The position numbers and the translations under genes are program-made. The notes beneath the pieces were generated by a model. It saw only the letters and a program-made list of their open reading frames with translations, did no database searches and was not told the origin of the DNA. From contig NC_015177.1 in NCBI RefSeq assembly GCF_000190735.1, positions 496,001 through 560,000 on the forward strand: 64,000 nucleotides of DNA. The letters run 5' to 3'. Shown here in pieces: positions 36,755 through 61,681 of this stretch (the stretch's first letter is position 1; each line of letters begins with the position of its first letter). The stretch is from Pseudopedobacter saltans DSM 12145 (GTDB taxonomy: Bacteria; Bacteroidota; Bacteroidia; Sphingobacteriales; Sphingobacteriaceae).

Positions 36755-39322
36755 ATGGAAAAAAGATTACAAAGAGGAGCTAGTAGCCTGAAGAGGTTAG
36801 TGGCTTTTTTTGTTTTGCTATTATTGGCAAACGTAACTATGGCACAAATAACTTTGAAAGGGAAAGTTGTTGATGCTGTTACAAAAGAACCTTTAACAGG
36901 AGCTGCTGTAACTATAAAAGGAAGTACGATAGGGACAACCGCTGATATCGAGGGAGAGTTTACACTAAAGGTAAAAGAAACACCGGTGGTATTGGTTGTA
37001 GGTTTTGTTAGCTATAATTCTAAGGAAGTAAATATTACTGCAAAAGGTAATGCAGTTTTGCCTGCCATAGAGCTGGAGTCTAACATTACTACAATGTCTG
37101 AAATTGTGGTAAAGGCAAATAGCGTTGCAATAGACAGAAAAACACCAGTGGCTGTATCTACTATTACATCCGCGGTGATAGAGGAGAAGCTCGGTAGCCA
37201 GGAGTTTCCTGAATTGCTGAAGTCTACTCCCGGTGTTTATGCAACCAGGGTTGGAGGTGGATTTGGAGATTCTCGTATTAATTTAAGAGGTTTCCAAAGT
37301 GAAAATATTGCGGTTATGATCAACGGAGTGCCAATCAATGGAATGGAAAATGGTAAAGTTTACTGGTCTAACTGGGCTGGTTTATCCGATGTTACAAGAT
37401 CTATGCAGGTGCAAAGAGGTTTGGGAGCATCAAAAGTTGCCGTACCTTCTGTTGGCGGTACTATAAATATCACAACCAGGACAATAGATGTAATTAAGGG
37501 AGGCTCCATTTTTCAGGGTATAGGTAATGATGGTTATAGTAAGACTACTTTTACTTATTCTTCAGGCTTGATGGATAATGGCTGGGCTTTTACGATATTA
37601 GGCGGTAGAAATGTAGGTAAAGGCTGGGCTGATGGTTTAGATTACGAAGGATATAATTATTTCTTTAATGTATCTAAAAAGATAAACCAAAAACATACGC
37701 TGGCTTTAACGGCTTTTGGAGCACCGCAAACCCATGCCCAAAGATATGACAGGTTGTATATTAATGAGTATAGAGATGCTGCGCAAGGAATTAAATATAA
37801 CCCGAATTGGGGATATTATAATGGGGAGTTTAAATCTTTAAGCGTTAATAAGTATCATAAACCGCAAATTTCATTAAACCATAACTGGACAATAGATGAA
37901 ACATCTTTCTTGTCGACTTCAGTTTATGGATCTGTAGCTTCAGGAGGTGGTATTGCATACACCGGAAGTTTGAAGTTTAACGATTTTAGAACGAATGGCG
38001 CTTATTCTCCGGTAAATATTGATGCAATTGCTCAGAAAAACATAGCAAATCAAGACGGTAGTGCTCTTGGATATATGAGAAACTCTGTAAATGACCATCA
38101 GTGGTATGGTATCTTAAGTACTTATACTAAAAAACTGAATGATAAATTTGATATTCTGGCTGGTATCGACGGCAGATATTACAGAGGTAAACATTATCAA
38201 TTAGTTGATGATTTGTTGGGTGCTTCTTATGTAGCTGATAATACCAATAAAAATAACCCTTTTAACAGAGCAAAAACCGGAGATAAAATAGCTTTTAACA
38301 ATGATGGCGTTATCGGCTGGGAGGGCGCGTTTGTTCAGGGAGAGTATTCAGAAGGACCGGTTTCAGCGTTTGTATCTTTATCCGGATCTAATACATCCTA
38401 CCAGCGCATAGATTATTTCATGTTCTTAAATTCTGATCCGAACCAAAAATCTAAAAAAGTGAACATATTCGGTTTCCAGACCAAAGGTGGGATAAACTAT
38501 AACCTAACGGAAAAACATAATGTATTCGCTAATATCGGTTATTTTGAAAAGGCACCGTTTTTCAATGCCGTTTTCATGAACAACTCCAATACGGTTAATA
38601 ATAATTTTAAAAGAGAGAAAATTGCCAGTTATGAACTTGGCTACGGTTTTAGAACTTCTGCGTTTTCTGCAAATCTAAATTTATATTATACCGATTGGAA
38701 AGATAAATCTTTCACCAGATCTTTTAGCCGTGGAGAGGAGCGTTTCTTTGGTAATTTTTCTGGTGTAAATGCACTTCATAAAGGAGTAGAGCTAGATTTT
38801 GCATACAGGCCGACTAATAAATTTACAATGAAAGGTATGCTTTCGGTTGGAGACTGGAAATGGACAAATAACTTACAAAAGTTAGAGATATATGATGATC
38901 AACAACAAGTTGTCGATACTTATGGCCCGGTTTATATGAAAGGATTGAAAGTAGGGGATTCCCCTCAAACTACTTTGGCTTTAGGAGCAAATTATGATCT
39001 TTTTGAGAATTTCAAAATAGGTATTGATTATAACTACTATGCAAATTATTCTTCAGATTTCAATCCTACGACTTTATTAAAGGAGAATTTGGTTGCATGG
39101 AAAGTGCCTAATTATTCGCTTTTAGATGTAAATGCTGTTTTCAAAATGAAAATCGCGGGTTTAAATACATCATTATTTGCTAATGTAAATAACCTGTTTA
39201 ATACAGAATATATTTCTGATGGCTATGCAAACTTTCAAAATGGAATAAGTAACGCCGCAAATACACAAGTGTTTTACGGAACTGGTAGAACTTGGACAAC
39301 GGGTTTAAAAGTTAACTTTTAA
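36755..39322 (+). CDS. TonB-dependent receptor with N-terminal carboxypeptidase-like domain
   Basis: 855 residues: signal/membrane segment (about 12-30, ending TMAQ), a carboxypeptidase-regulatory-like domain (LKGKVVDAVTKEPLTGAAV... about 33-115), a plug (VAVSTITSAVIEEKLGSQEF, NLRGFQSENIAVMINGVPING, RGLGASKVAVPSVGGTINITT) and a 22-stranded barrel ending TWTTGLKVNF. It imports an unknown ligand across the outer membrane with TonB energy. The partner gene 20 bases downstream encodes a lipoprotein unlike SusD, so this is not a standard SusC/D pair. Confidence 0.88.
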   Translation: MEKRLQRGASSLKRLVAFFVLLLLANVTMAQITLKGKVVDAVTKEPLTGAAVTIKGSTIGTTADIEGEFTLKVKETPVVLVVGFVSYNSKEVNITAKGNAVLPAIELESNITTMSEIVVKANSVAIDRKTPVAVSTITSAVIEEKLGSQEFPELLKSTPGVYATRVGGGFGDSRINLRGFQSENIAVMINGVPINGMENGKVYWSNWAGLSDVTRSMQVQRGLGASKVAVPSVGGTINITTRTIDVIKGGSIFQGIGNDGYSKTTFTYSSGLMDNGWAFTILGGRNVGKGWADGLDYEGYNYFFNVSKKINQKHTLALTAFGAPQTHAQRYDRLYINEYRDAAQGIKYNPNWGYYNGEFKSLSVNKYHKPQISLNHNWTIDETSFLSTSVYGSVASGGGIAYTGSLKFNDFRTNGAYSPVNIDAIAQKNIANQDGSALGYMRNSVNDHQWYGILSTYTKKLNDKFDILAGIDGRYYRGKHYQLVDDLLGASYVADNTNKNNPFNRAKTGDKIAFNNDGVIGWEGAFVQGEYSEGPVSAFVSLSGSNTSYQRIDYFMFLNSDPNQKSKKVNIFGFQTKGGINYNLTEKHNVFANIGYFEKAPFFNAVFMNNSNTVNNNFKREKIASYELGYGFRTSAFSANLNLYYTDWKDKSFTRSFSRGEERFFGNFSGVNALHKGVELDFAYRPTNKFTMKGMLSVGDWKWTNNLQKLEIYDDQQQVVDTYGPVYMKGLKVGDSPQTTLALGANYDLFENFKIGIDYNYYANYSSDFNPTTLLKENLVAWKVPNYSLLDVNAVFKMKIAGLNTSLFANVNNLFNTEYISDGYANFQNGISNAANTQVFYGTGRTWTTGLKVNF

Positions 39323-39342
39323 TCAAGAATAAATCATTAATA

Positions 39343-40500
39343 ATGAAAAAGATATTCAATATAGCAGCTTTGATAGCTACCATTGCTTTAGCGCAGGCAT
39401 GTGATCCGATGAAGGATACTTATGCGGAGTTAGATATAAATAAAATTGATAGAGCCGGAGTTAGGGAAATGACATTAGAGTTGACTGATGCCGATTATTC
39501 AACATTTAAAAAATCCTCTGGTTATACAGAGAAAAATAAAGCTTTCAGTAGTGAAGATTCTGCGAAAATCCTTATTCCAGAGCTATTAAACAGTAAGTAC
39601 AAATATTTGGAGGAAACTTCTACTATTAACGTTACTTATAATCTAAATAATGTGAATACGAAGATGAATCCTACTGTTGGACATACTTTAACCATGGCAG
39701 ATTATTTGGCGGTAAATGGTGCAACTAATGGTCAGCCAAGCGTACCGAAATTTACGACGTTGAACTCTGCATCCAGTATTATAAAAGCGGCGGAGGCTAT
39801 AAATAAAACTCCCAAAAATGGTGATGTTTTACAGTTGACGTTTGCCTGGAATAGTAAGCCCGTGAAAGATTCTACGGCAACAGTTCTTTATTTTGATGGT
39901 GCCTGGGCTATTGCTTATACGCTTCTGGCAACAGATTATACCATTATGACTCAAGCTAATTCGAATTTTAGCTCAGCAGCTGTGGCAAATACATTTATTC
40001 CAATTTTTATAGCTAATAAGTTCCCATATTCTGTAGTAGAAGGTTCTATACAACCTGTACTTTATACTATGTATAACGGTACAGGAAACCCAACAACCAC
40101 AGAGGTTTGTTTATTGAAATATGTATCAGGGAAATGGATTGTTATTAATGGGACGGTTAAGTACGCTTCGAAATTTGCTGTTAAAAGCGGTAAATGGGTA
40201 CCAGACAATACCATAAAACATAAATTGATTACTGACGATTATAAAATAACTATAGCTGGATTATCTAAAACGGAATTGCCGACAGCATCTGAAAATATTG
40301 CGAAATATGGTAATTTTGATATGAGATATTGGAACGACCAACAAATAGAAAAATATTTAGGCTTGTTTGCAGGAGTGAGATTCCCCGATGCAATTACTGA
40401 TCAGAAATGTGAATTAACCTATGTTACTTTTTCACCGTCTGCAACTTTAGTGAAAGTATTTGTTAAAAATGCGGAAGGTAAGTTTGAGATTATAAAATAG
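39343..40500 (+). CDS. Lipoprotein partner of the TonB receptor
   Basis: 385 residues with lipobox LAQAC (Cys20), followed by DPMKDTYAELD. The body is a mixed alpha/beta chain with two similar halves around repeats of the type KFAVKSGKWVPDNTIKHKLITDDY and PELLNSKYKYLEETSTINVTY. No SusD TPR helices. Probably a surface ligand-binding protein that works with the upstream receptor; substrate unknown. It ends at a shared bidirectional terminator. Confidence 0.65.
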   Translation: MKKIFNIAALIATIALAQACDPMKDTYAELDINKIDRAGVREMTLELTDADYSTFKKSSGYTEKNKAFSSEDSAKILIPELLNSKYKYLEETSTINVTYNLNNVNTKMNPTVGHTLTMADYLAVNGATNGQPSVPKFTTLNSASSIIKAAEAINKTPKNGDVLQLTFAWNSKPVKDSTATVLYFDGAWAIAYTLLATDYTIMTQANSNFSSAAVANTFIPIFIANKFPYSVVEGSIQPVLYTMYNGTGNPTTTEVCLLKYVSGKWIVINGTVKYASKFAVKSGKWVPDNTIKHKLITDDYKITIAGLSKTELPTASENIAKYGNFDMRYWNDQQIEKYLGLFAGVRFPDAITDQKCELTYVTFSPSATLVKVFVKNAEGKFEIIK

Positions 40501-40523
40501 TATTAATTTTAAAATCAATTCGA

Positions 40524-40555
40524 ATAAAATCCGGATCTATAGATCCGGATTTTAT
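40524..40555. terminator. Bidirectional terminator between convergent operons
   Basis: A near-perfect palindrome ATAAAATCCGGATC / GATCCGGATTTTAT with a 4-base loop and T-runs on both sides, serving the TonB-lipoprotein operon and the cytochrome c operon. Confidence 0.9.
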
Positions 40556-41019
40556 TATTTTGAGCTATTACTATTTCTTACTTTTGCTACTTCAGCAACA
40601 CTGATTGCAGAAGATTTATTATCAAAGTTATTCCTGATAAACGTTAAAATGTCTGCGATTTGCTGATTGCTCAGATAATTGAAAGCAGGCATTGGATTTG
40701 AATATTCCTCTCCATCTATTTCAATGGGTTCGTTAAGCCCTTTTAATAGAATATTGATCAGTCGGGTCTTATCACCATTTACATATTCTGTTTTTCTTAA
40801 GGGCGGATTTAAATTAGGTACGCCATTTCCGTCTGCCTGATGACAAACCATGCAATGTTGCGTGTATAATGCCTTACCGCTGTCAAATGACTTCTTGAAG
40901 CCCGAAGTTGTCATCGTATTAGATTGTGTTGGCGTAGCTTTTTTTTGCTGTGCCAACACAAAAAGACTTGTGAACGAAAGTGTTGCTGTTAAAAGAAGGC
41001 TTAAGGTTTTATTTGCCAT
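40555..41019 (-). CDS. Small c-type cytochrome
   Basis: 154 residues. Signal peptide (about 1-24), then a class I cytochrome c domain with heme motif Cys56-x-x-Cys59-His60 (CMVCH) and axial Met110 (NPMPAF). Last gene of a three-gene operon; its ATG overlaps the sugar dehydrogenase gene by 11 bases. It is likely the electron acceptor of that dehydrogenase in the periplasm, passing electrons to a terminal oxidase. Confidence 0.88.
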   Translation of the reverse strand: MANKTLSLLLTATLSFTSLFVLAQQKKATPTQSNTMTTSGFKKSFDSGKALYTQHCMVCHQADGNGVPNLNPPLRKTEYVNGDKTRLINILLKGLNEPIEIDGEEYSNPMPAFNYLSNQQIADILTFIRNNFDNKSSAISVAEVAKVRNSNSSK

Positions 41020-42286
41020 TATAACTTATTTTAAAGATTGTACCTTTTTTATCGTCTGTTACATATATCGATCCATCAGGACCCTGGGCCAGGCCGCAAG
41101 GTCTGTACACTGCTTGTGATGCTGATGTAATATTGTCTGATCCGGCAAAACCGTTAGCGAAAAACTCCCAGTTTCCAGATGGTTTACCATTTTTAAAGGG
41201 AACAAAAGCTACAAAGAAACCTTCCTGTTTTTCCGGTGCTCTGTTCCATGATCCGTGAAAGGCTATAAATGCGCCGTTTCGATATTTCTCGGGAAATTGA
41301 GATCCTGTGTAAAATAATAAGCCGTTAGGTGCCAGATGCGCTGGAAAAGCAACAACTGGATTAATGTATGAAGCATCGGCAGCTTTTTTACCATCTCCAC
41401 CATATTCAGGAGCCAGCATGTTTTTCTTCTGAAACGGATCGTAGTAGGCAAAAGGCCAGCCTGCATTATCTCCTTTTTTTAGTTCGTACATACATTCCGC
41501 TGGCAGCTCTGCATTGGTTTTAGCATCAAATAAATCCGGAAATAAAGTGTTTAATTGGTCGCGGCCATGTTGCATTACAAATAGGCTGTTGGTTGTGTTG
41601 TTCCAATCTAATCCTACAACATTTCTTAATCCAGTGGCGTAGCGGGTACCTTGTCCATAGCTTTGGTTTAATTTGTTTGCTTTAAACTGCCAGATTCCTC
41701 CTGCCGAATCCAATAATGGACATCCCGGAACTCCTAAAGAACCTGGTTTGCGGTCTTCCTGCTGACAAGAGTTGGAATAAGCACCTATATTTACATAGAT
41801 GTTATCATTGTTGTCGATAACGATAGATTTTGTTTCGTGTTGTCTGCCCATCTTTAGTCCGGTAATAATCTTTTCCGGATGTTCGGTATCTGCTACTTCG
41901 TTATTCGCGTTTAATTTATATCTGAATACTTCCTGATTAGAAGAGGTATATAAATAACCATTCTTGGTATAGATTCCGGTTCCGCCGTAGTTCCCAAAGC
42001 CTTTGATGACTTCATATTTACCATCTGCATTTGTGTCTTTAAGATAAAGTACTCCTTTGCTGTCAACCGCCCGGGCAAGTTTAACATACATACTCCCGTC
42101 GGGATTTATTGTAAGGTGCCTTGGTTTACCCAAATTTTCTGCTACTATGGCTGTTGTGAATCCTTGTGGTAAGGATATTTTGACATTTCCTGCGACTGGT
42201 ATTTTATTGCCGTCGACTATATTTTGCGCGTAAGAGCAGGCCAGTAACGATACGGCCAAACTAAAAGTTAATATGCTTTTTTTCAT
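41009..42286 (-). CDS. PQQ-dependent sugar dehydrogenase-like (sorbosone dehydrogenase family)
   Basis: 425 residues. Signal peptide (about 1-21), then a six-bladed propeller of the soluble glucose/sorbosone dehydrogenase family: GLKMGRQHETKSIVIDNNDNIYVNIGA, RYATGLRNVVGLDWN, QHGRDQLN, GWPFAYYDP, NGLLFYTGSQFP, AFHGSWNRAPEKQEG, YRPCGLAQGPDGSIYVTDD. These enzymes oxidise aldoses or aldehydes using PQQ; PQQ synthesis genes are not in the window. Overlaps the upstream lyase candidate by four bases (ATGA) and the cytochrome by 11. Confidence 0.85.
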   Translation of the reverse strand: MKKSILTFSLAVSLLACSYAQNIVDGNKIPVAGNVKISLPQGFTTAIVAENLGKPRHLTINPDGSMYVKLARAVDSKGVLYLKDTNADGKYEVIKGFGNYGGTGIYTKNGYLYTSSNQEVFRYKLNANNEVADTEHPEKIITGLKMGRQHETKSIVIDNNDNIYVNIGAYSNSCQQEDRKPGSLGVPGCPLLDSAGGIWQFKANKLNQSYGQGTRYATGLRNVVGLDWNNTTNSLFVMQHGRDQLNTLFPDLFDAKTNAELPAECMYELKKGDNAGWPFAYYDPFQKKNMLAPEYGGDGKKAADASYINPVVAFPAHLAPNGLLFYTGSQFPEKYRNGAFIAFHGSWNRAPEKQEGFFVAFVPFKNGKPSGNWEFFANGFAGSDNITSASQAVYRPCGLAQGPDGSIYVTDDKKGTIFKISYNGK

Positions 42287-43623
42287 TTTATTTTATTTAT
42301 CTGATAAGGTTTCTTGTATCCTGAGGTAACTTTTCCATAAAAAACATTCCTTTTTGCAATATTAATCTCGCCATCTCCTCCTTCGGTTATGAAAAGTTTT
42401 ATGTCTTTGGTAGCGTTTTCTATAACTTCAACACGATCAACTTTCGCACCAACCTGTATAGCTGTTTCGAGCTTCCATTTTAATCCTCCGTCGTTTGTTA
42501 TGTAGGTTTTTATTTTATTCTCGTTTGGAATATAAACTCTAAAAGAGTTCGCTCCAATCTTTTCTAATTCTCTGGGATCTCTTAAATCCCTGATTTCATT
42601 TCCCGGAGATTGAATAGTTGCGAAGACCCATGATTTTCCATTCCAAGTAGCACTTCCGGGACCACCATTTAATTGGTTGTCAAAATAAATTAAAGGCCAG
42701 CCGTTATCCTTATAATGTACAGAGACCTGCAGGCCTGCTAAATGTCCTTTTTCCGGAATACCAGTATCCAGCACCATACAATATTTATCCATTTCTTCGG
42801 TATCTATTGTTTCTCCTAAATCTACATCATTGATATTATATAAATGGTCATTAGACGGATCAAGATAGGCATAATATACATTACGTCCATAAGTAGCATG
42901 CGCATGTTTTCCGAGCTTTTCTCCGGCTATAGTCCAGGCCAAATGTATTTTTCCTTTTTGATTACCATGAGCAGGTTGATAACTGACCTTTCCGTTATAA
43001 ATCTCCATCATATTGTCGGTTTTTCTTGGATATGGATCAATAGCCATCTGCTTTGTCCAGTTTTTTCCTGAATCCGTCGACTTTACAAATCGATAAGGTC
43101 TGTCATCGGAATATTTGTTGTTTTGTCTGGTTTCTCTGTAAAATACGTAAAATGTTCCTTTTTGGGTAATTATCGGAGCGGGGTAAGAGGCTTTCTCTGC
43201 AATGTCTATAAAACTATCTTTCCATTCTCCGTCAATGCTTAAGGGGGAAGGAGAAACCGTCATTTTTAAAGTAGAGTTATGACATCCATAAAATATATAA
43301 ATTTTTCCATCTTTACCCTTTAACATTCCCGGATAATTATGTTTGTCTACAAAAGGAGAATTCCCTACTACTTTATCCACGGACCATGTTTTCGTTCTGT
43401 GATCGTATTCTTTTACTACGGCGCTGCTACTTGCTCCCATCCACGTGACAAAGGTTTTATTCGCCTGTTTATCATAAAAACCTATGTTAATTGGTCTTTG
43501 ATCTGAACGGGTATTGGCTTTTTCACTTAAAAGCGAAACAGACACCTTTTGTGTTGAACAGCCCACAATGAAAAAGCATATATAGGCTAATGGGAGATAT
43601 AATCTGAAATATTGAGGTTTCAT
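42283..43623 (-). CDS. BNR-repeat propeller lipoprotein, candidate polysaccharide lyase (PL24/25-like)
   Basis: 446 residues from the ATG at 43623; an upstream in-frame TTG (43647) is less likely because the lipoprotein signal (MKPQYFRLYLPLAYICFFIVGC) begins here. The chain is a BNR-type propeller (MLKGKDGKIYIFYGCHNS, SYPAPIITQKGTFYVFYRETR, KSTDSGKNW, ATYGRNVYYAYLDPSNDHLYN). The last segment resembles the ulvan-lyase group (PL24/PL25) as I recall it. First gene of the operon with the sugar dehydrogenase and cytochrome c, so it probably generates the sugar that is oxidised. Substrate inferred. Confidence 0.62.
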   Translation of the reverse strand: MKPQYFRLYLPLAYICFFIVGCSTQKVSVSLLSEKANTRSDQRPINIGFYDKQANKTFVTWMGASSSAVVKEYDHRTKTWSVDKVVGNSPFVDKHNYPGMLKGKDGKIYIFYGCHNSTLKMTVSPSPLSIDGEWKDSFIDIAEKASYPAPIITQKGTFYVFYRETRQNNKYSDDRPYRFVKSTDSGKNWTKQMAIDPYPRKTDNMMEIYNGKVSYQPAHGNQKGKIHLAWTIAGEKLGKHAHATYGRNVYYAYLDPSNDHLYNINDVDLGETIDTEEMDKYCMVLDTGIPEKGHLAGLQVSVHYKDNGWPLIYFDNQLNGGPGSATWNGKSWVFATIQSPGNEIRDLRDPRELEKIGANSFRVYIPNENKIKTYITNDGGLKWKLETAIQVGAKVDRVEVIENATKDIKLFITEGGDGEINIAKRNVFYGKVTSGYKKPYQINKIK

Positions 43624-43823: not shown

Positions 43824-44819
43824 ATGAAAAGAGGATCGATCGTTTTTAATAAAGGGATAACTTTTTTGTTAACCTTGTTGATTATTACGCTGTCTTGCTC
43901 GTCTTCTAAAGAGGAGACTGCTCCGGAAAAGGAAAAAACAGAGGAAACTGTAGATAAAGCGGATAATGATAAGGATGACCCTTCTAAAGAAGAGCCAAAC
44001 TCAGGCCAGCCACCAAAGGAAGATCCTCCTAAAGAAAACCCAGGAAGCGGAACTGTTAATAACGCCGCTACGCTAAGTGCAACGGCTAGCTCTGGGAGTG
44101 CTTATCCTCTTTTTACTGGGGCTTTTGCCCATGAAAATCCAGATTGTGTACATAGTCCATTTGGGCCACATGTTACACAGGCGTTTGATTCGGATTTAAA
44201 TAAAAATGTATTTGTTTTCCATAGTCATATCATTGATGATAATGACAGATGTACCAATTTTGACAGGGTAAGAATGGAGATTAAGGGAAGCAACAGCAAA
44301 ACGGAACACAAGGAGAATGAAATGGGGTATTACAGATGGAAGTTCAGGCTGCCTGCTGATTTTGTAGGGTCTAATACATTCTGTCATATTTTCCAGATCA
44401 AAGCAAAAAGTGGTGATGCCGGAGCCCCTTTGATTACTATTACGCCGAGAGCTTCGGTCCTGGAAGTTATTCATGATGCCGGTGAGAGTAAAGCCAATAG
44501 TTTAGGAAAGGTTATTTCTGTTCCGTTGGCTCCTTTTAAGGGTGCCTGGGTGGAGGCTTATGTAAAATACAAGAGCAGCGATAATGGTTCTTTTGAAATC
44601 GTATTAACGAGGGTGAGTGACGGTGTTACTTTGTTAAGTTACAGCAAGGCTAGTGGCATAGATATGTGGCGTACGGGCGACAATCAGGTGAATCGGGGAA
44701 AATGGGGAGTATACAGGTCTAAAGGTGATGGAAAAACTGTGTTAAAGGATGAACAGGTTAAATTTGCGGATTTTTGTGTGTCGGAAACGAGTGAGGCGGA
44801 GTGTCCGAGTAGTAAGTAG
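43824..44819 (+). CDS. Jelly-roll polysaccharide lyase-like lipoprotein
   Basis: 331 residues. Lipobox near 26 (LSC), then a Glu/Lys/Asp/Pro-rich linker (about 28-75). The catalytic-type domain has a heparin/alginate-lyase jelly-roll pattern (HVTQAFDSDLNKNVFVFHSH, DNDRCTNFDRVRMEIKGS, GYYRWKFRLPADF, TFCHIFQIKA). The FDRVRMEI and FCHIFQIK strands resemble PL20/PL28-like lyases acting on uronic-acid glycans such as glucuronan or ulvan. Its last codons (Ser-Ser-Lys) are encoded by the first units of a 7-nt repeat array, so the C-terminus may vary by slippage. Confidence 0.6.
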   Translation: MKRGSIVFNKGITFLLTLLIITLSCSSSKEETAPEKEKTEETVDKADNDKDDPSKEEPNSGQPPKEDPPKENPGSGTVNNAATLSATASSGSAYPLFTGAFAHENPDCVHSPFGPHVTQAFDSDLNKNVFVFHSHIIDDNDRCTNFDRVRMEIKGSNSKTEHKENEMGYYRWKFRLPADFVGSNTFCHIFQIKAKSGDAGAPLITITPRASVLEVIHDAGESKANSLGKVISVPLAPFKGAWVEAYVKYKSSDNGSFEIVLTRVSDGVTLLSYSKASGIDMWRTGDNQVNRGKWGVYRSKGDGKTVLKDEQVKFADFCVSETSEAECPSSK

Positions 44820-45109: not shown

Positions 45110-47575
45110 ATGCGAAAACTTTATTTTTTAGCTCTAACCTCTTTTTTAGCTGTTGCAAATGCCAATGCACAGCAGCATGATAAAACTTTAAAATTGTGGT
45201 ACGATGCACCGTCCAGAAACTGGAATGAGGCTCTGCCTATTGGCAATGGCCGTTTGGGTGCTATGGTATTTGGAAATCCTGATCGGGAGAAAATCCAGCT
45301 AAATGAAGAGACAGTTTGGTCTGGTGGACCTAATACTAATATTACAGCTGAGTCAGGGGCTGCTATTCCAAAGCTGAGACAGCTGATTTTTGAGGAGAAG
45401 TTTTTGGAAGCACAGGCTTTGGCTGATGTAGATATGTTTCCGAAGAAAAACAGCGGGATGATCTATCAGCCTGTAGGTGATTTATTAATTAACTTTCCGG
45501 GACATGCACAGGTTGAAAAATATTATAGGGACCTTAATATTGAAAAAGCAGTAACGACCGTTAGCTATCGTTTAAATGGTGTTAATTATAAAAGGGAGAC
45601 TTTCGCTTCTTTCCCAGATCAGGTTATTATTGTTCGTTTAACTGCTGATAAGCCAAATAAAATAACTTTTAATGCTTCTTTAACTTCGCCGCAGAATAGT
45701 GCACAGAAGATAGAAAACGGTAAATTGATTTTAACAGGGCTAACTGCGGATCATGAAGGAGAGAAGGGGCAGATCAAATTTGAGACTCAGGTTAAAACCA
45801 AAGTAAAAGGAGGAAAGGCGGAGCTGACAGGTAGTTTATGGAAGGTTACAAATGCCAATGAGGCGATTATTTATATTTCTATGGCTACCAATTTTGTCAA
45901 GTACAATGATATTTCCGGTAACCAACATGTAAAGGCGTCAAATTATTTAGATAAAGCATTTGTTAAGAATTATGACGATGCTCTAAAACAACATATTGCA
46001 TTCTATCAGCAATATTTTAACCGGGTAAAGTTTGATGTGGGCGTCAATGCTTCGGTGAATAAACCTACTGACAGAAGGATTTATGAATTCGCAAAAAGCT
46101 TTGATCCACATTTAGCAGCTTTATATTTTCAGTTTGGAAGGTATCTTTTGATTTGTAGCTCGCAACCGGGTAACCAACCGCCAACTTTACAGGGAATTTG
46201 GAATGATAGAATGGATGCGCCATGGGATAGTAAGTACACGATCAATATCAATACGGAAATGAACTATTGGCCAGCGGAAGTAACGAATTTATCTGAATTG
46301 CATCAACCTTTGTTTAATATGCTGGAAGATCTGGCTGTAACAGGACAAGCCACTGCTCAATCGATGTATGGTGCTAAAGGCTGGGTAACACACCATAATA
46401 CCGATTTGTGGCGGATTACCGGTCCTGTTGACAGACCTTATGCTGGACTTTGGCCAATGGGAGGGAATTGGCTAAGCCAGCATTTGTGGGATCATTACCA
46501 GTTTACCGGTAACAAAGACTTTTTGAAGAAATATTATCCTGTTTTAAAGGGTGCAAGTGATTTTTATCTGGATATTTTACAGGAGGAACCTAAGCACAAA
46601 TGGTTAGTGGTTTCTCCATCAAATTCCCCTGAAAACACTTATGTAGAAGGTAAGAGAGTATCTATTGCCGCAGGAACAACGATGGACAATCAGTTGCTTT
46701 TTGATCTGTTTAGTAAAACTGCTAAAGCTGCTGAGATTTTAGGTATAGATAAAGATTACAGTACGCTATTGAAACAAAAGATCAATAGGCTTGCACCTAT
46801 GCAAATTGGTAAATACAGCCAGTTGCAGGAATGGATGTACGATTGGGACAGACCGGATGACAAACACCGCCATGTTTCTCACCTATATGGCTTATATCCC
46901 AGCAATCAAATATCTCCATATAGTACTCCTGAGCTGTTTGATGCAGCCAGAACTTCGTTGATTTACAGAGGTGATCCGGCTACTGGTTGGTCTATGGGAT
47001 GGAAAGTCAATTTATGGGCCCGTTTTCTGGATGGAAATCATGCCTATAAATTAATTACCGATCAATTGAAGTTGGTTGGCGGAAGTATAGATAGTGTGAA
47101 CGTAAAAGGCGGTGGAACTTATCCGAATATGTTTGACGCTCATCCTCCTTTTCAAATTGATGGAAACTTTGGTTGTACTGCAGGAATAGCGGAGATGATT
47201 TTGCAATCACATGACGGTGCTATCCATATTTTACCTGCTTTGCCTGATATCTGGCCAACCGGTAAAATGACAGGTTTGGTAGCCAGAGGTGGTTTTGTGG
47301 TAGATGTTGTTTGGGAGAAATCTAAATTAAAGGAGCTGAAAGTTACTTCTCGTTTGGGAGGAAATTGCAGGTTGAGAATTAATGAGGATTTATTAGCTTC
47401 TACAGCTAATCTTAAAGCTGCATCGGGAAGCAATGCTAATGCTTTTTACGAGGTTCCTACGGTTAAGAAGCCAATAATTTCTCCTGAAGCTAAGTTAAAA
47501 CCGGTAGGTATTAAAGCCAGTAAGGAGTTTGATCTTTCTACCGAAGCCGGAAAGGAGTATGTTTTTAAGTTTTAG
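45110..47575 (+). CDS. GH95 alpha-L-fucosidase/galactosidase-type enzyme (copy 1)
   Basis: 821 residues. Signal peptide ends NANAQ. N-terminal GH95 beta domain (LWYDAPSRNWNEALPIGNGRLGAMVFG), then an (alpha/alpha)6 catalytic domain. By comparison with the bifidobacterial AfcA enzyme, the substrate-assisting asparagines are Asn379 and Asn381 (ININTEMNYW), the proton donor Glu574 (LQEWMYDW), and Asp684 lies in FQIDGNFG. It hydrolyses alpha-linked fucose or galactose, usually exo-acting in the periplasm or at the surface. About 290 bases after the lyase candidate. Confidence 0.92.
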   Translation: MRKLYFLALTSFLAVANANAQQHDKTLKLWYDAPSRNWNEALPIGNGRLGAMVFGNPDREKIQLNEETVWSGGPNTNITAESGAAIPKLRQLIFEEKFLEAQALADVDMFPKKNSGMIYQPVGDLLINFPGHAQVEKYYRDLNIEKAVTTVSYRLNGVNYKRETFASFPDQVIIVRLTADKPNKITFNASLTSPQNSAQKIENGKLILTGLTADHEGEKGQIKFETQVKTKVKGGKAELTGSLWKVTNANEAIIYISMATNFVKYNDISGNQHVKASNYLDKAFVKNYDDALKQHIAFYQQYFNRVKFDVGVNASVNKPTDRRIYEFAKSFDPHLAALYFQFGRYLLICSSQPGNQPPTLQGIWNDRMDAPWDSKYTININTEMNYWPAEVTNLSELHQPLFNMLEDLAVTGQATAQSMYGAKGWVTHHNTDLWRITGPVDRPYAGLWPMGGNWLSQHLWDHYQFTGNKDFLKKYYPVLKGASDFYLDILQEEPKHKWLVVSPSNSPENTYVEGKRVSIAAGTTMDNQLLFDLFSKTAKAAEILGIDKDYSTLLKQKINRLAPMQIGKYSQLQEWMYDWDRPDDKHRHVSHLYGLYPSNQISPYSTPELFDAARTSLIYRGDPATGWSMGWKVNLWARFLDGNHAYKLITDQLKLVGGSIDSVNVKGGGTYPNMFDAHPPFQIDGNFGCTAGIAEMILQSHDGAIHILPALPDIWPTGKMTGLVARGGFVVDVVWEKSKLKELKVTSRLGGNCRLRINEDLLASTANLKAASGSNANAFYEVPTVKKPIISPEAKLKPVGIKASKEFDLSTEAGKEYVFKF

Positions 47576-47872: not shown

Positions 47873-50485
47873 ATGATGATGAATAGATATATATACTTGT
47901 TGACACTTTTTGTGATAGCAAATCTTGCAGGATTTGCGCAAAGCAAATCAGATCCTAATTTAGTTTTATGGTATAAGGAACCTTCTAAGATTTGGGAAGA
48001 GGCTTTACCTATAGGTAATGGTTTTCAAGGAGCCATGGTCTTTGGTGGCGTTGGCAAAGAACGTTTTCAACTGAATAACGGAACTTTATGGTCTGGATTC
48101 CCTAATCCGGGAAATAATCCAAAAGGTCCAGCGGCTTTGCCTCAGGTAAGAAAAGCCATTGACGATGGGGATTATGCTAAAGCCGCTGAAATCTGGAAGA
48201 AGAATAATCAAGGGCCTTATTCTGCTAGATATTTAACCATGGCTGATCTTTATCTTGATTTTAATCATAAAGATAGCGATGTACAGGCTTATAAAAGATC
48301 TTTAGATTTAAATAGTGCTGTACACACGGTAACTTACAAAGTAGGCGGAGTAACTTATAAAAGGGAAACTTTAATGAGTAACCCAGACAAGGTGATGGCT
48401 ATTAGGCTAACTGCCGATAAGAAAAATGCCTTAAGTTTTACTACAGATTTAATCAGTAAGCTGAAATACAAAACCAATGCTGTAGGGCAAAATGCACTGA
48501 TTTTGAAAGGAAAAGCTCCTAAACATGTGGCACATAGACCAACAGAGCCAGAGCAAATTATTTACGATGAGAACGGAGAAGGGATGACTTTTGAAGTTCA
48601 TTTAAAAGTTTTGAACGAAGGTGGAACTGTTAAAACAGTAGGAAATAAAATTACTGTGCAAAACGCCAATGCAGTAACCATTTATTTATCCAGTGGAACA
48701 AGTTTTAACGGTTTTGACAAATCGCCAACTATTGCAGGTAAAAATCCGTCAATTGAGGCTTCGGCTAATCTGGCTGCTGCAGTTGGAAAAAAATATGATG
48801 TAATGAAGCAAGCCCATATTGCTGATTATAGTAAACTGTTTAACAGGGTGGTTTTGAAGTTAGGAAATCGTCCTGATTTGGCTAATCTTCCAACCAATAT
48901 CCGTTTGTCCAGACAGGGACAGAAAGGAAATGATCAGGAATTGCAGGTGTTGTATTTTCAGTTTGGTCGTTATTTAATGATATCCAGTTCAAGACCGGGT
49001 TCTCAGGCAACAAACTTACAGGGTTTGTGGAATGATCATGTGCAACCACCTTGGGGCAGTAATTATACCGTAAATATCAATACGGAAATGAACTATTGGT
49101 TGGCGGAGAATACTAATTTGTCTGAACTGCATTATCCATTATTTGATTTTCTGGAAAGGCTTGCCGTGAATGGAAAGGAAACAGCGAAAATCAACTATAA
49201 TATTAACAAGGGATGGGTATTGCATCATAATACCGATATCTGGGCAAAAACTTCACCAACGGGTGGTTATGACTGGGATCCGAAAGGTTCACCACGCTGG
49301 TCGGCATGGCCAATGGGCGGTGCCTGGTTAAGTACGCATTTGTACGATCATTATCTGTTTACGGGCGATAAAAGGTTTTTGAAGGAGAAAGCATATCCTT
49401 TAATGAAGGGCGCGGCCGAGTTTCTATTGGCATGGCTGGTACCTGACCAAAGCGGATATTTGATCACCAATCCATCAACTTCTCCGGAAAATACCTTTAC
49501 CATCAATAAGAAACAATATGAGATCAGTAAGGGGACAACCATGGATTTGGGGATTATGCTGGAGTTGTTTAATGCTTGTATTCAATCTGCTAAGGCTTTA
49601 GATACTGATGCTAATTTTGTAAAACAGTTGGAAGCAGCTAAGGCCAAGCTGTACCCATATCAAATCGGCAAATATGGACAATTGCAGGAGTGGTTTTTTG
49701 ATATAGACGATCCTAAAGATACACATAGACATATCTCGCATTTGTATGGTTTATATCCGGGAAACCAAATTACGTTAGAGACCACACCAGAACTGGCTGC
49801 AGCTGCTAAGCAGTCCCTTATTCATAGGGGAGATGTAAGTACCGGTTGGTCTATGGCATGGAAAATTAATTGGTGGGCGAGGTTACAGGATGGGAACCAT
49901 GCTTTAAAGATCTTAAAAGATGGCCTGACATTGATTGATCCTGCTAAAACAGCAGAAGGCGATGGTAAACATTCGGCAGGAGTAAACCAGCAACTGACCA
50001 ATGTACAAATGAGTGGCGGTGGTACATATCCGAATTTATTGGATGCCCATCCACCTTTCCAAATTGATGGGAATTTTGGTGCTACGGCAGGAATCATAGA
50101 AATGTTGTTGCAAAGCCATAATGGTGCCTTGCATTTGCTTCCTGCTCTTCCGGATGAATGGAAGGAGGGAGCTGTGAAAGGAATTAAGAGCAGAGGTAAT
50201 TTTACTGTTGATATGGAATGGAACCAGAATAAACTGGTTAAATCTGTTATTTTATCTAATGAAGGTGGTGTTTGTAGAGTGAAGTCTTTTTATCCAATTA
50301 AGGTGGTAGAAGTTAAAGGGGCAGAGGTAGAAGGGCAGAGTGCTAATCCATTATTACCTAGCGTACAAGGTTTAAAGTTTACCAATGTAACGAATGCTAA
50401 ACTGGTAGATGTGAAAATAGCAAAGACTTATGGAATAGAATTTAAGACAGAAAAGGGAAAACGTTATACCGTTGTTCCGCTATAA
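47873..50485 (+). CDS. GH95 alpha-L-fucosidase/galactosidase-type enzyme (copy 2)
   Basis: 870 residues; three adjacent ATG codons at 47873 leave the exact start open by two residues. Signal peptide ends FAQ. Same architecture as copy 1: LWYKEPSKIWEEALPIGNGFQGAMVFG, Asn401 and Asn403 (VNINTEMNYW), Glu606 (LQEWFFDID), Asp732 (FQIDGNFG). Compared with copy 1 it carries extra insertions (a longer beta domain and a KTAEGDGKHSAGVNQQ-type loop before NVQMSGGGTYPN), which hints at a different linkage or side-chain preference. Ends at a strong terminator. Confidence 0.92.
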   Translation: MMMNRYIYLLTLFVIANLAGFAQSKSDPNLVLWYKEPSKIWEEALPIGNGFQGAMVFGGVGKERFQLNNGTLWSGFPNPGNNPKGPAALPQVRKAIDDGDYAKAAEIWKKNNQGPYSARYLTMADLYLDFNHKDSDVQAYKRSLDLNSAVHTVTYKVGGVTYKRETLMSNPDKVMAIRLTADKKNALSFTTDLISKLKYKTNAVGQNALILKGKAPKHVAHRPTEPEQIIYDENGEGMTFEVHLKVLNEGGTVKTVGNKITVQNANAVTIYLSSGTSFNGFDKSPTIAGKNPSIEASANLAAAVGKKYDVMKQAHIADYSKLFNRVVLKLGNRPDLANLPTNIRLSRQGQKGNDQELQVLYFQFGRYLMISSSRPGSQATNLQGLWNDHVQPPWGSNYTVNINTEMNYWLAENTNLSELHYPLFDFLERLAVNGKETAKINYNINKGWVLHHNTDIWAKTSPTGGYDWDPKGSPRWSAWPMGGAWLSTHLYDHYLFTGDKRFLKEKAYPLMKGAAEFLLAWLVPDQSGYLITNPSTSPENTFTINKKQYEISKGTTMDLGIMLELFNACIQSAKALDTDANFVKQLEAAKAKLYPYQIGKYGQLQEWFFDIDDPKDTHRHISHLYGLYPGNQITLETTPELAAAAKQSLIHRGDVSTGWSMAWKINWWARLQDGNHALKILKDGLTLIDPAKTAEGDGKHSAGVNQQLTNVQMSGGGTYPNLLDAHPPFQIDGNFGATAGIIEMLLQSHNGALHLLPALPDEWKEGAVKGIKSRGNFTVDMEWNQNKLVKSVILSNEGGVCRVKSFYPIKVVEVKGAEVEGQSANPLLPSVQGLKFTNVTNAKLVDVKIAKTYGIEFKTEKGKRYTVVPL

Positions 50486-59778: not shown

Positions 59779-59808
59779 TTTGTTGAAATGATTTATCTTG
59801 TACTTTTG
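59779..59808 (+). promoter_or_regulatory. Promoter of the BtuB-like receptor gene
   Basis: TTTG (59779-59782), an 18-base spacer and TACTTTTG (59801-59808) match the consensus well. The ATG at 59813 lies only five bases after the -7 box, so the transcript should be leaderless or nearly so. Confidence 0.65.
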
Positions 59809-59812
59809 CGAC

Positions 59813-61681
59813 ATGAAAAAATCCAACTTGTATGGAGCACTGTTAATTAGTGCTTTTTTCAATTCAGCCGTTTTTGCACAAACTAATGTTCAATCTCTAA
59901 ACGAGGTGTTGATACAGGGAAACAGGTTACAAATTCAATTGTCTGAACAGAATAGAAATGTTGACGTTATTACCGCTCAGGAAATACAGAAATTGCCGGC
60001 TAAGTCGGTAAATGAGATATTAGGCTATGTGTCTGGTGTGGATATACGACAAAGGGGGCCGTTTGGAACTCAGGCTGATATCAGTTTGGATGGCGGAAGT
60101 TTTGAACAAACATTAATTTTATTGAATGGCATAAAAATTACCGATCAACAAACGGCGCATAATACATTGAATTTGCCTATTCCCACGGAGGCCATTGAAC
60201 GCATTGAGATTTTAAGAGGGCCTGCGGCCAGAGTTTATGGTGTAAACAGTTTAACAGGAGCTATTAATATTGTTACTAAAAATCCCGAGTCTACCGCATT
60301 ATTTGCGAATGTATTTGCTGGAAGTAATTTCAAGAAAGACGAGGAAGGAAATGGGGATTTGTACAACGGGCGTGGCGTTCAGCTAGGTGGAAGTATAGCA
60401 AAAGAAAAACATACACATCAGTTGTATACCTCTCATGAATCTGGTACCGGATACCGTTACAATACAGCTTATCACAATAACAGGATTTTCTATCAGGGAC
60501 AGATTAAACCCGATGAACAGAATAAAATTGATGTTTTGGCCGGTTTTGTGAGAAGCTCTTTTGGTGCTAATGGTTTTTATGCAGCACCCGGCGACAAAGA
60601 ATCTAAAGAAGTTGTGAGTACGACACTGGCCTCTGTAAAGTCTAAGCATTTAATTAATGGTCGCTTTACATTAAGCCCACAAGTTGGTTATAGATATAAT
60701 TTTGATGACTATCGTTATTACAGGTACGATCTTTCTAAAGCCAGAAGCAGGCATCATTCAAATGCTGTAACAGTGGAAATTAATGGCGATTACAGAATGG
60801 ATTTTGGTGAATTTGGATTTGGAGTGGAAACGCGTTATGAGCAGATTAATTCTACCAGTATAGGTAAACACGAGCGTGAGAACTACGGACTTTATACAGA
60901 GTTTAGAACAGATAAAATCGAGCGTGTTAATCTAAATGTTGGTGCTTATGTAAATTATAATTCTGTTTACGGCTGGCAGGTGTTTCCAGGTTTAGACTTT
61001 AGTTATTTGCTAAAGCCAGGTTTCAGATTTGTATTTAACAGCGGAACAAGTCAGCGCATTCCTTCTTACACAGATTTGTATCTTCAACAGCCAGGAAACC
61101 TTGGTAATGCAGATTTGATTTCTGAAAAAGCATATCAGATTGAAGGTGGTTTTAAATATGATGCCAATCGCTTATCTGCAAAAGCAATAGTTTTTTATAG
61201 AAATATAGATGATTTTATAGATTGGACTAAAGATGTTATCACTAATCCATGGCTGGCAAATAATACAGGTTCTATTCGTACCACTGGTTTCAACTTTCAA
61301 ACACAATATTTGTTAACCAAGAATGCTGTGTATAACTGGAACCTAAACGTAGGTTATACTTACTTATCTCCGGAATTTAAAGATCAGCCTTCCACACAAT
61401 TTTCAAAATATAAGATAGAAAGTCTTAGACATCAATTGGTAGCCAAATTGGGATGGCAATATCGCAATTGGTCTGCTTTGCTTGCAGAACGTTATCAGGA
61501 ACGTATTTCTTATAAAGATTACTTTTTGACTGATTTACGTGTGAATTTCAATCAAAAACAATTTGATTACTATCTGGATTTTCAAAATATCTTCGATAAG
61601 ACTTACATAGAAGCAGCTGCGGTTCCAATGCCAGGTAGGTGGTTTAGTTTAGGAGTGAAATATCGTCTGGACGCTCATTAG
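59813..61681 (+). CDS. TonB-dependent receptor, BtuB-like
   Basis: 622 residues from the ATG at 59813; an in-frame TTG at 59798 is less likely. Signal peptide ends VFAQ, then a plug (VIQGNRLQIQLSEQNRNVDVITAQEIQKLP-type TonB box region, GVDIRQRGPFGTQADISLDGG, RIEILRGPAARVYGVNSLTGAINIVT) and a 22-strand barrel ending SLGVKYRLDAH. No carboxypeptidase-like domain and no SusD, so it is of the vitamin/metal-chelate import type. No cobalamin riboswitch was found upstream. Ligand unknown. Confidence 0.88.
   Translation: MKKSNLYGALLISAFFNSAVFAQTNVQSLNEVLIQGNRLQIQLSEQNRNVDVITAQEIQKLPAKSVNEILGYVSGVDIRQRGPFGTQADISLDGGSFEQTLILLNGIKITDQQTAHNTLNLPIPTEAIERIEILRGPAARVYGVNSLTGAINIVTKNPESTALFANVFAGSNFKKDEEGNGDLYNGRGVQLGGSIAKEKHTHQLYTSHESGTGYRYNTAYHNNRIFYQGQIKPDEQNKIDVLAGFVRSSFGANGFYAAPGDKESKEVVSTTLASVKSKHLINGRFTLSPQVGYRYNFDDYRYYRYDLSKARSRHHSNAVTVEINGDYRMDFGEFGFGVETRYEQINSTSIGKHERENYGLYTEFRTDKIERVNLNVGAYVNYNSVYGWQVFPGLDFSYLLKPGFRFVFNSGTSQRIPSYTDLYLQQPGNLGNADLISEKAYQIEGGFKYDANRLSAKAIVFYRNIDDFIDWTKDVITNPWLANNTGSIRTTGFNFQTQYLLTKNAVYNWNLNVGYTYLSPEFKDQPSTQFSKYKIESLRHQLVAKLGWQYRNWSALLAERYQERISYKDYFLTDLRVNFNQKQFDYYLDFQNIFDKTYIEAAAVPMPGRWFSLGVKYRLDAH

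Follow-up and report, generated by a model that had tools for sequence, protein, structure and literature searches.

The window analyzed here, a 64,000-nucleotide stretch of Pseudopedobacter saltans DSM 12145 (NC_015177.1, positions 496,001 to 560,000), contains three overlapping open reading frames on the minus strand, encoding a lyase-like BNR_4 propeller lipoprotein (42283..43623), a predicted GSDH/AA12-like PQQ-type aldose dehydrogenase (41009..42286) and a single-haem c-type cytochrome with a signal peptide (40555..41019). The propeller and dehydrogenase genes share a 4-base ATGA overlap (42283..42286), and the dehydrogenase and cytochrome genes an 11-base overlap (41009..41019), in exact agreement with the sequence-only reading of this DNA. 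The start codon of the propeller gene is an ATG at position 43623; a TTG in the same frame lies 24 bases further upstream. By visual inspection, all three proteins carry N-terminal export signals, and the first has a lipobox (IVGC). A perfect inverted repeat of 17+17 bases (34 bases, 40523-40556) overlaps the stop codon of the cytochrome gene and faces a convergent gene, and is probably a two-way terminator at the 3' end of the unit. Co-transcription of the three genes is plausible, as is coupling of their translation. Convergent with the trio, a TonB receptor and lipoprotein gene pair occupies positions 36755-40500 on the plus strand.

The second protein had been read as a soluble enzyme of the sorbosone/glucose dehydrogenase type, and this assignment holds at the family level: it passes the gathering cut-off of PF07995 GSDH (51.3 bits, cut-off 25, 1.4e-13; Pfam) and that of PF22807 TrAA12 (33.2 bits, cut-off 30.9), and retains the catalytic residues. 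Its score against TIGR03606, the glucose/sorbosone PQQ dehydrogenase subfamily, is well below the cut-off (20.9 vs 434.55 bits), and the DUF7133 and TIGR02604 profiles also match. The best solved relatives of the dehydrogenase profile are the fungal AA12 enzymes TrAA12 (1.3e-13) and CcPDH (3.2e-10). At the offset at which eleven of eleven published residues agree, the TrAA12 base His153 corresponds to H150, Arg220/Asp221 to R221/N222, His330 to H317 and His350 to H344 (residue roles from PMC6881810), the catalytic His/Arg/Asx set of AA12 being present as H150, R221 and N222. By sequence, the enzyme belongs to the group of glucose/sorbosone dehydrogenases and fungal AA12 proteins, and it is probably a PQQ sugar dehydrogenase. 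It resembles the fungal AA12 pyranose dehydrogenases (CcPDH, 6jt5; TrAA12, 6h7t) in propeller family, in catalytic His and Arg/Asx, in an HGSWNR motif common to CcPDH and, presumably, in passing electrons to a cytochrome, but it is bacterial, of low sequence identity and active by prediction, and where the fungal enzymes carry a fused b-type domain the window encodes a separate c-type cytochrome. With the soluble PQQ glucose/aldose dehydrogenases (PF07995) it shares the Pfam family, the His base and the Arg/Asn pair, but it scores below the TIGR03606 cut-off and PqqC was not found in its host.

The cytochrome matches PF00034 Cytochrom_C (51.9 bits, 2e-13; Pfam), and its C56, C59, H60 and M110, the CxxCH motif and distal Met of class I, are invariant among 14 orthologues. 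Among 400 genomes sampled across the order, 171 carry an orthologue of the dehydrogenase (E ≤1e-60), and a homologous cytochrome c gene lies directly downstream on the same strand in 68 of 78 orthologue loci, mostly a few bases away or overlapping. This adjacency is far beyond chance, and its recurrence establishes the dehydrogenase and cytochrome as a functional pair, bearing out the redox pair proposed earlier, with the cytochrome likewise upheld at the family level. One 588 aa dehydrogenase (locus L082, 8782-10548) contains a CxxCH motif and is probably a dehydrogenase-cytochrome c fusion. The genome of P. saltans also carries ccoN, encoding a cbb3 oxidase subunit. Oxidation of a sugar prior to its import would be consistent with an exported PQQ-type/cytochrome c pair, which is likely to form a PQQ-dependent aldose-oxidising module associated with plant polysaccharide genes.

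Divergent from the trio, the window encodes a PF14099 polysaccharide lyase-type lipoprotein (43824..44819, plus strand; 34.8 bits, cut-off 29.9), followed on the same strand by two GH95 proteins identified by profile (45110..47575 and 47873..50485), the first being nearest to the Bacteroides ovatus alpha-L-galactosidase 4ufc. Pectin-type genes occur in the vicinity of 34 of 77 pair loci vs 2 of 20 control regions placed at arbitrary coordinates (Fisher p 0.004). The relatedness of the genomes weakens this result, although, going by the starred branches of the tree, the pectin label must have changed at least six times; about half of the 77 loci show no carbohydrate context. The gene immediately upstream of the pair on the same strand is GH105-type (PF07470) in 16 loci and GH28-like in four, other loci having GH36-like, SusD-like or further genes there (GH28, GH36 and SusD labels assigned by eye). 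The slot upstream of the pair can hold different genes, BNR_4 being a rare one among them. Four congeners have the pair together with a GH95 orthologue (72% identical to the window GH95 in the one compared, L066), GH2, pectate-lyase-like and alginate-lyase-like proteins, and UxaA/UxaB. To the right of the window, a probable pectin locus (L196, 2978-17920) comprises SusC/SusD-like genes followed by a gene for a pectinesterase-domain protein.

A second type of context involves L-fucose. In Paradesertivirga mongoliensis (G028), the pair stands in a row with genes for FucP (404 bits, cut-off 280), an SDR, FAH, an L-fuconolactonase-like protein (280 bits, cut-off 400), L-fucose dehydrogenase (417 bits, cut-off 300), a Zn-ADH and an AKR, and a shorter version of this row accompanies the pair in genome G023; these are the only two of 77 loci, in two genera, with an L-fucose operon beside the pair. 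In P. saltans itself, an operon 46 kb to the right of the window (L190 6983-13435, equivalent to G000:C1:603982-610434) encodes a UxaA-type dehydratase, an SDR, FAH, an L-fuconolactonase-like protein, an AKR and a Zn-ADH, and probably specifies a non-phosphorylative L-fucose/L-galactose pathway, with fuconolactonase and FAH matches that fall below the curated cut-offs. A title cited in PMC12370193 places altronate dehydratase family proteins in L-fucose and L-galactose pathways. The genome lacks an SDR L-fucose dehydrogenase, an absence that we do not take as proof that the GSDH protein replaces it, since the AKR sits in the fuconolactonase operon; this AKR has no solved relative at E 1e-10. 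A polymorphic GH95 residue was considered as a means of distinguishing L-fucose from L-galactose and abandoned, since this position is reported not to decide specificity (PMC8245568). Our best guess, offered tentatively, is that one of these two sugars is the substrate of the dehydrogenase, although it may differ among lineages, given that so many loci show no carbohydrate context.

The propeller protein had been described as a BNR-propeller lipoprotein and a candidate lyase resembling PL24/25. Comparison with the BNR_4 profile confirmed the former (PF15892, 88.4 bits, cut-off 27.3, 6.7e-25; Pfam). The nearest solved relative is the PL25 ulvan lyase PLSV_3936 (5uam), by profile (1.3e-10) and by fold (1.2e-20), the fold match resting on a predicted model of pLDDT 70 built from only four sequences. 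The PL25 catalytic residues His123, Tyr188 and Arg204 are kept as H95, Y147 and R163, the second histidine (His143) is H115, and Tyr246 is also conserved (residue roles from PMC8377490 and PMC13193363). By contrast, the ulvan-binding Asn122 and Lys125 are replaced by K94 and Y97, and of the Zn ligands His208, His264, Cys266 and His278, aligned with Y171, H227, A229 and H242, two of four are lost. The lyase resemblance thus stands in its catalytic residues and top fold match, ulvan specificity does not, and we do not file the protein under PL25 because of these losses; ulvan lyase membership is further argued against by the pectin-type context. We regard it as lyase-like, with a substrate that is probably other than ulvan. 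Further fold matches of the model include GH145, PL42 and lectins, raising the possibility, which we consider somewhat unlikely, that the protein is a hydrolase or binding protein of these types; GH145 members keep the His/Arg site, and yet some act from the opposite face (PMC8377490). The rhamnose-glucuronate enzymes of PL42/GH145 (FoRham1, BT3686) do share with it the BNR_4 family, the propeller, the His pair and a neutralising Arg, but their fold match is weaker than that of PL25 and they are absent from the profile-search matches to solved structures, whereas PL25 is the best match by both sequence and fold, with its Tyr base likewise conserved here.

At a probability of roughly 45%, our preferred reading is that of a conserved two-gene respiratory module, a dehydrogenase with its own cytochrome c, combined with plant polysaccharide genes and serving the oxidation of L-fucose or L-galactose. 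A uronate-bearing, probably pectic, polymer would be cut by the lyase-like propeller protein together with the divergently encoded PF14099 lyase, and the GH95 enzymes would release L-fucose or L-galactose. The exported dehydrogenase, with scavenged PQQ, would oxidise the free aldose at C1 to a lactone, passing electrons via the cytochrome c to the cbb3 oxidase, and the non-phosphorylative pathway whose genes lie 46 kb from the window would break down the lactone or acid after its uptake. Several observations weigh against this scheme: the AKR of the fuconolactonase operon could be the cytosolic dehydrogenase of this genome, the L-fucose operon adjoins so few of the pair loci, PqqC is absent, a PQQ importer was not identified and the intact trio is unique. 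A rival reading, which we consider somewhat unlikely, is that the pair oxidises another plant aldose, such as D-galacturonate, D-galactose, L-arabinose or the reducing end of an oligosaccharide, the L-fucose link being incidental or lineage-specific. The GH105-type and GH28-like genes directly upstream of the pair would suit such a substrate, as would UxaA/UxaB of the galacturonate pathway beside it in the four congeners; against it, AA12 relatives prefer L-fucose-type sugars, L-fucose operons adjoin the pair in two genera and GH95 genes lie beside it.

The distribution of BNR_4 bears on the pathway originally proposed, in which the sugar product of the lyase itself feeds the dehydrogenase and all three proteins form one translationally coupled unit. 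Intact close BNR_4 homologues are found in 2 of 60, 2 of 400 and 1 of 395 genomes in overlapping samples, P. saltans itself being counted. Those of P. mongoliensis, a Filimonas MAG and Bacteroides nordii are 56-70% identical to the window protein: the first adjoins GH105-type and GH28-like genes, the second a GH28-like gene, and the third lies in a SusCD-type locus (L038, 1-11245) with GH97 and a homologue (35%) of the window PF14099 lyase. In none of the three is the dehydrogenase-cytochrome pair next to BNR_4. A pectate-lyase-like/GH105 gene pair precedes BNR_4 in P. mongoliensis, and in genome G002 (L075) homologues of these two genes, 59% and 67% identical, lie ahead of the dehydrogenase pair, so that BNR_4 and the dehydrogenase pair take the same position in related loci. 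In genome G196 (L109, 8903-9323), the C-terminal 43 residues of BNR_4 are joined to a GH36-like remnant directly upstream of the dehydrogenase, so the BNR_4-dehydrogenase-cytochrome order was once present in at least one further genus, where it has since decayed. A survey for recurrence of the trio thus returned one intact instance, that of the window, and one decayed copy, and we retain the trio as a rare variant rather than a recurrent unit. The gene overlaps, the conserved lyase residues and the G196 remnant favor the coupled pathway, but it appears improbable: nearly all genomes with the pair have it without BNR_4, BNR_4 occurs without an adjoining pair in three others, and a lyase would yield unsaturated oligosaccharides, not free aldoses. 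A neutral aldose from the neighbouring hydrolases is the more likely substrate, L-fucose or L-galactose freed by GH95 being favored over the lyase product by the adjacent GH95 genes, the L-fucose context in two genera and the fuconolactonase operon.

The preferred reading also requires a source of cofactor. A search of P. saltans and 30 relatives for PqqC, the marker of PQQ synthesis, found none, so PQQ would need to be scavenged; across the phylum, 0 of 296 genomes passed the PqqC cut-off, with weaker homologues present and the control genomes likewise giving no positive. This absence agrees with a report of PqqU-bearing Bacteroidota that do not synthesize PQQ and scavenge it, a habit common in the phylum (PMC12124388). 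No PQQ importer was identified among the TonB receptors of the window: the receptor at 36755-39322 matches SusC-like plugs only, and that at 59798-61681 is nearest to BtuB. That the dehydrogenase-like propeller acts without PQQ in some other role, as its low TIGR03606 score, its DUF7133 and TIGR02604 matches and the lack of a PQQ synthesis gene might suggest, is improbable in view of the conserved PQQ-contacting His and Arg, the HGSWNR motif and the frequency of PQQ scavenging in Bacteroidota.

More broadly, and more tentatively than the scheme for this locus, Bacteroidota that do not make PQQ may channel plant cell-wall L-fucose or L-galactose through a respiratory shunt formed by a widespread AA12-like dehydrogenase and its dedicated cytochrome c, the sugar being oxidised outside the inner membrane and imported as lactone or acid, and the module being inserted behind varied polysaccharide enzymes and here behind a new, non-ulvan BNR_4 lyase subfamily. 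Bacteroidota are usually described as importing sugars first and then breaking them down in the cytosol, and a literature search of limited coverage found no account of PQQ dehydrogenases in Bacteroidota polysaccharide loci. If correct, a common gene pair with links to pectin and L-fucose genes would draw part of the energy of these sugars outside the inner membrane, and would create a metabolic dependency on PQQ scavenged from neighbours. The analysis also provides a set of bacterial AA12-like enzymes with gene-context hints to their substrates and a small lyase-like BNR_4 subfamily available for assay. A further, short BNR_4 protein of 254 aa, 29% identical to the window protein, is encoded in a different SusD-type locus of the same genome (L085, 8573-9337).
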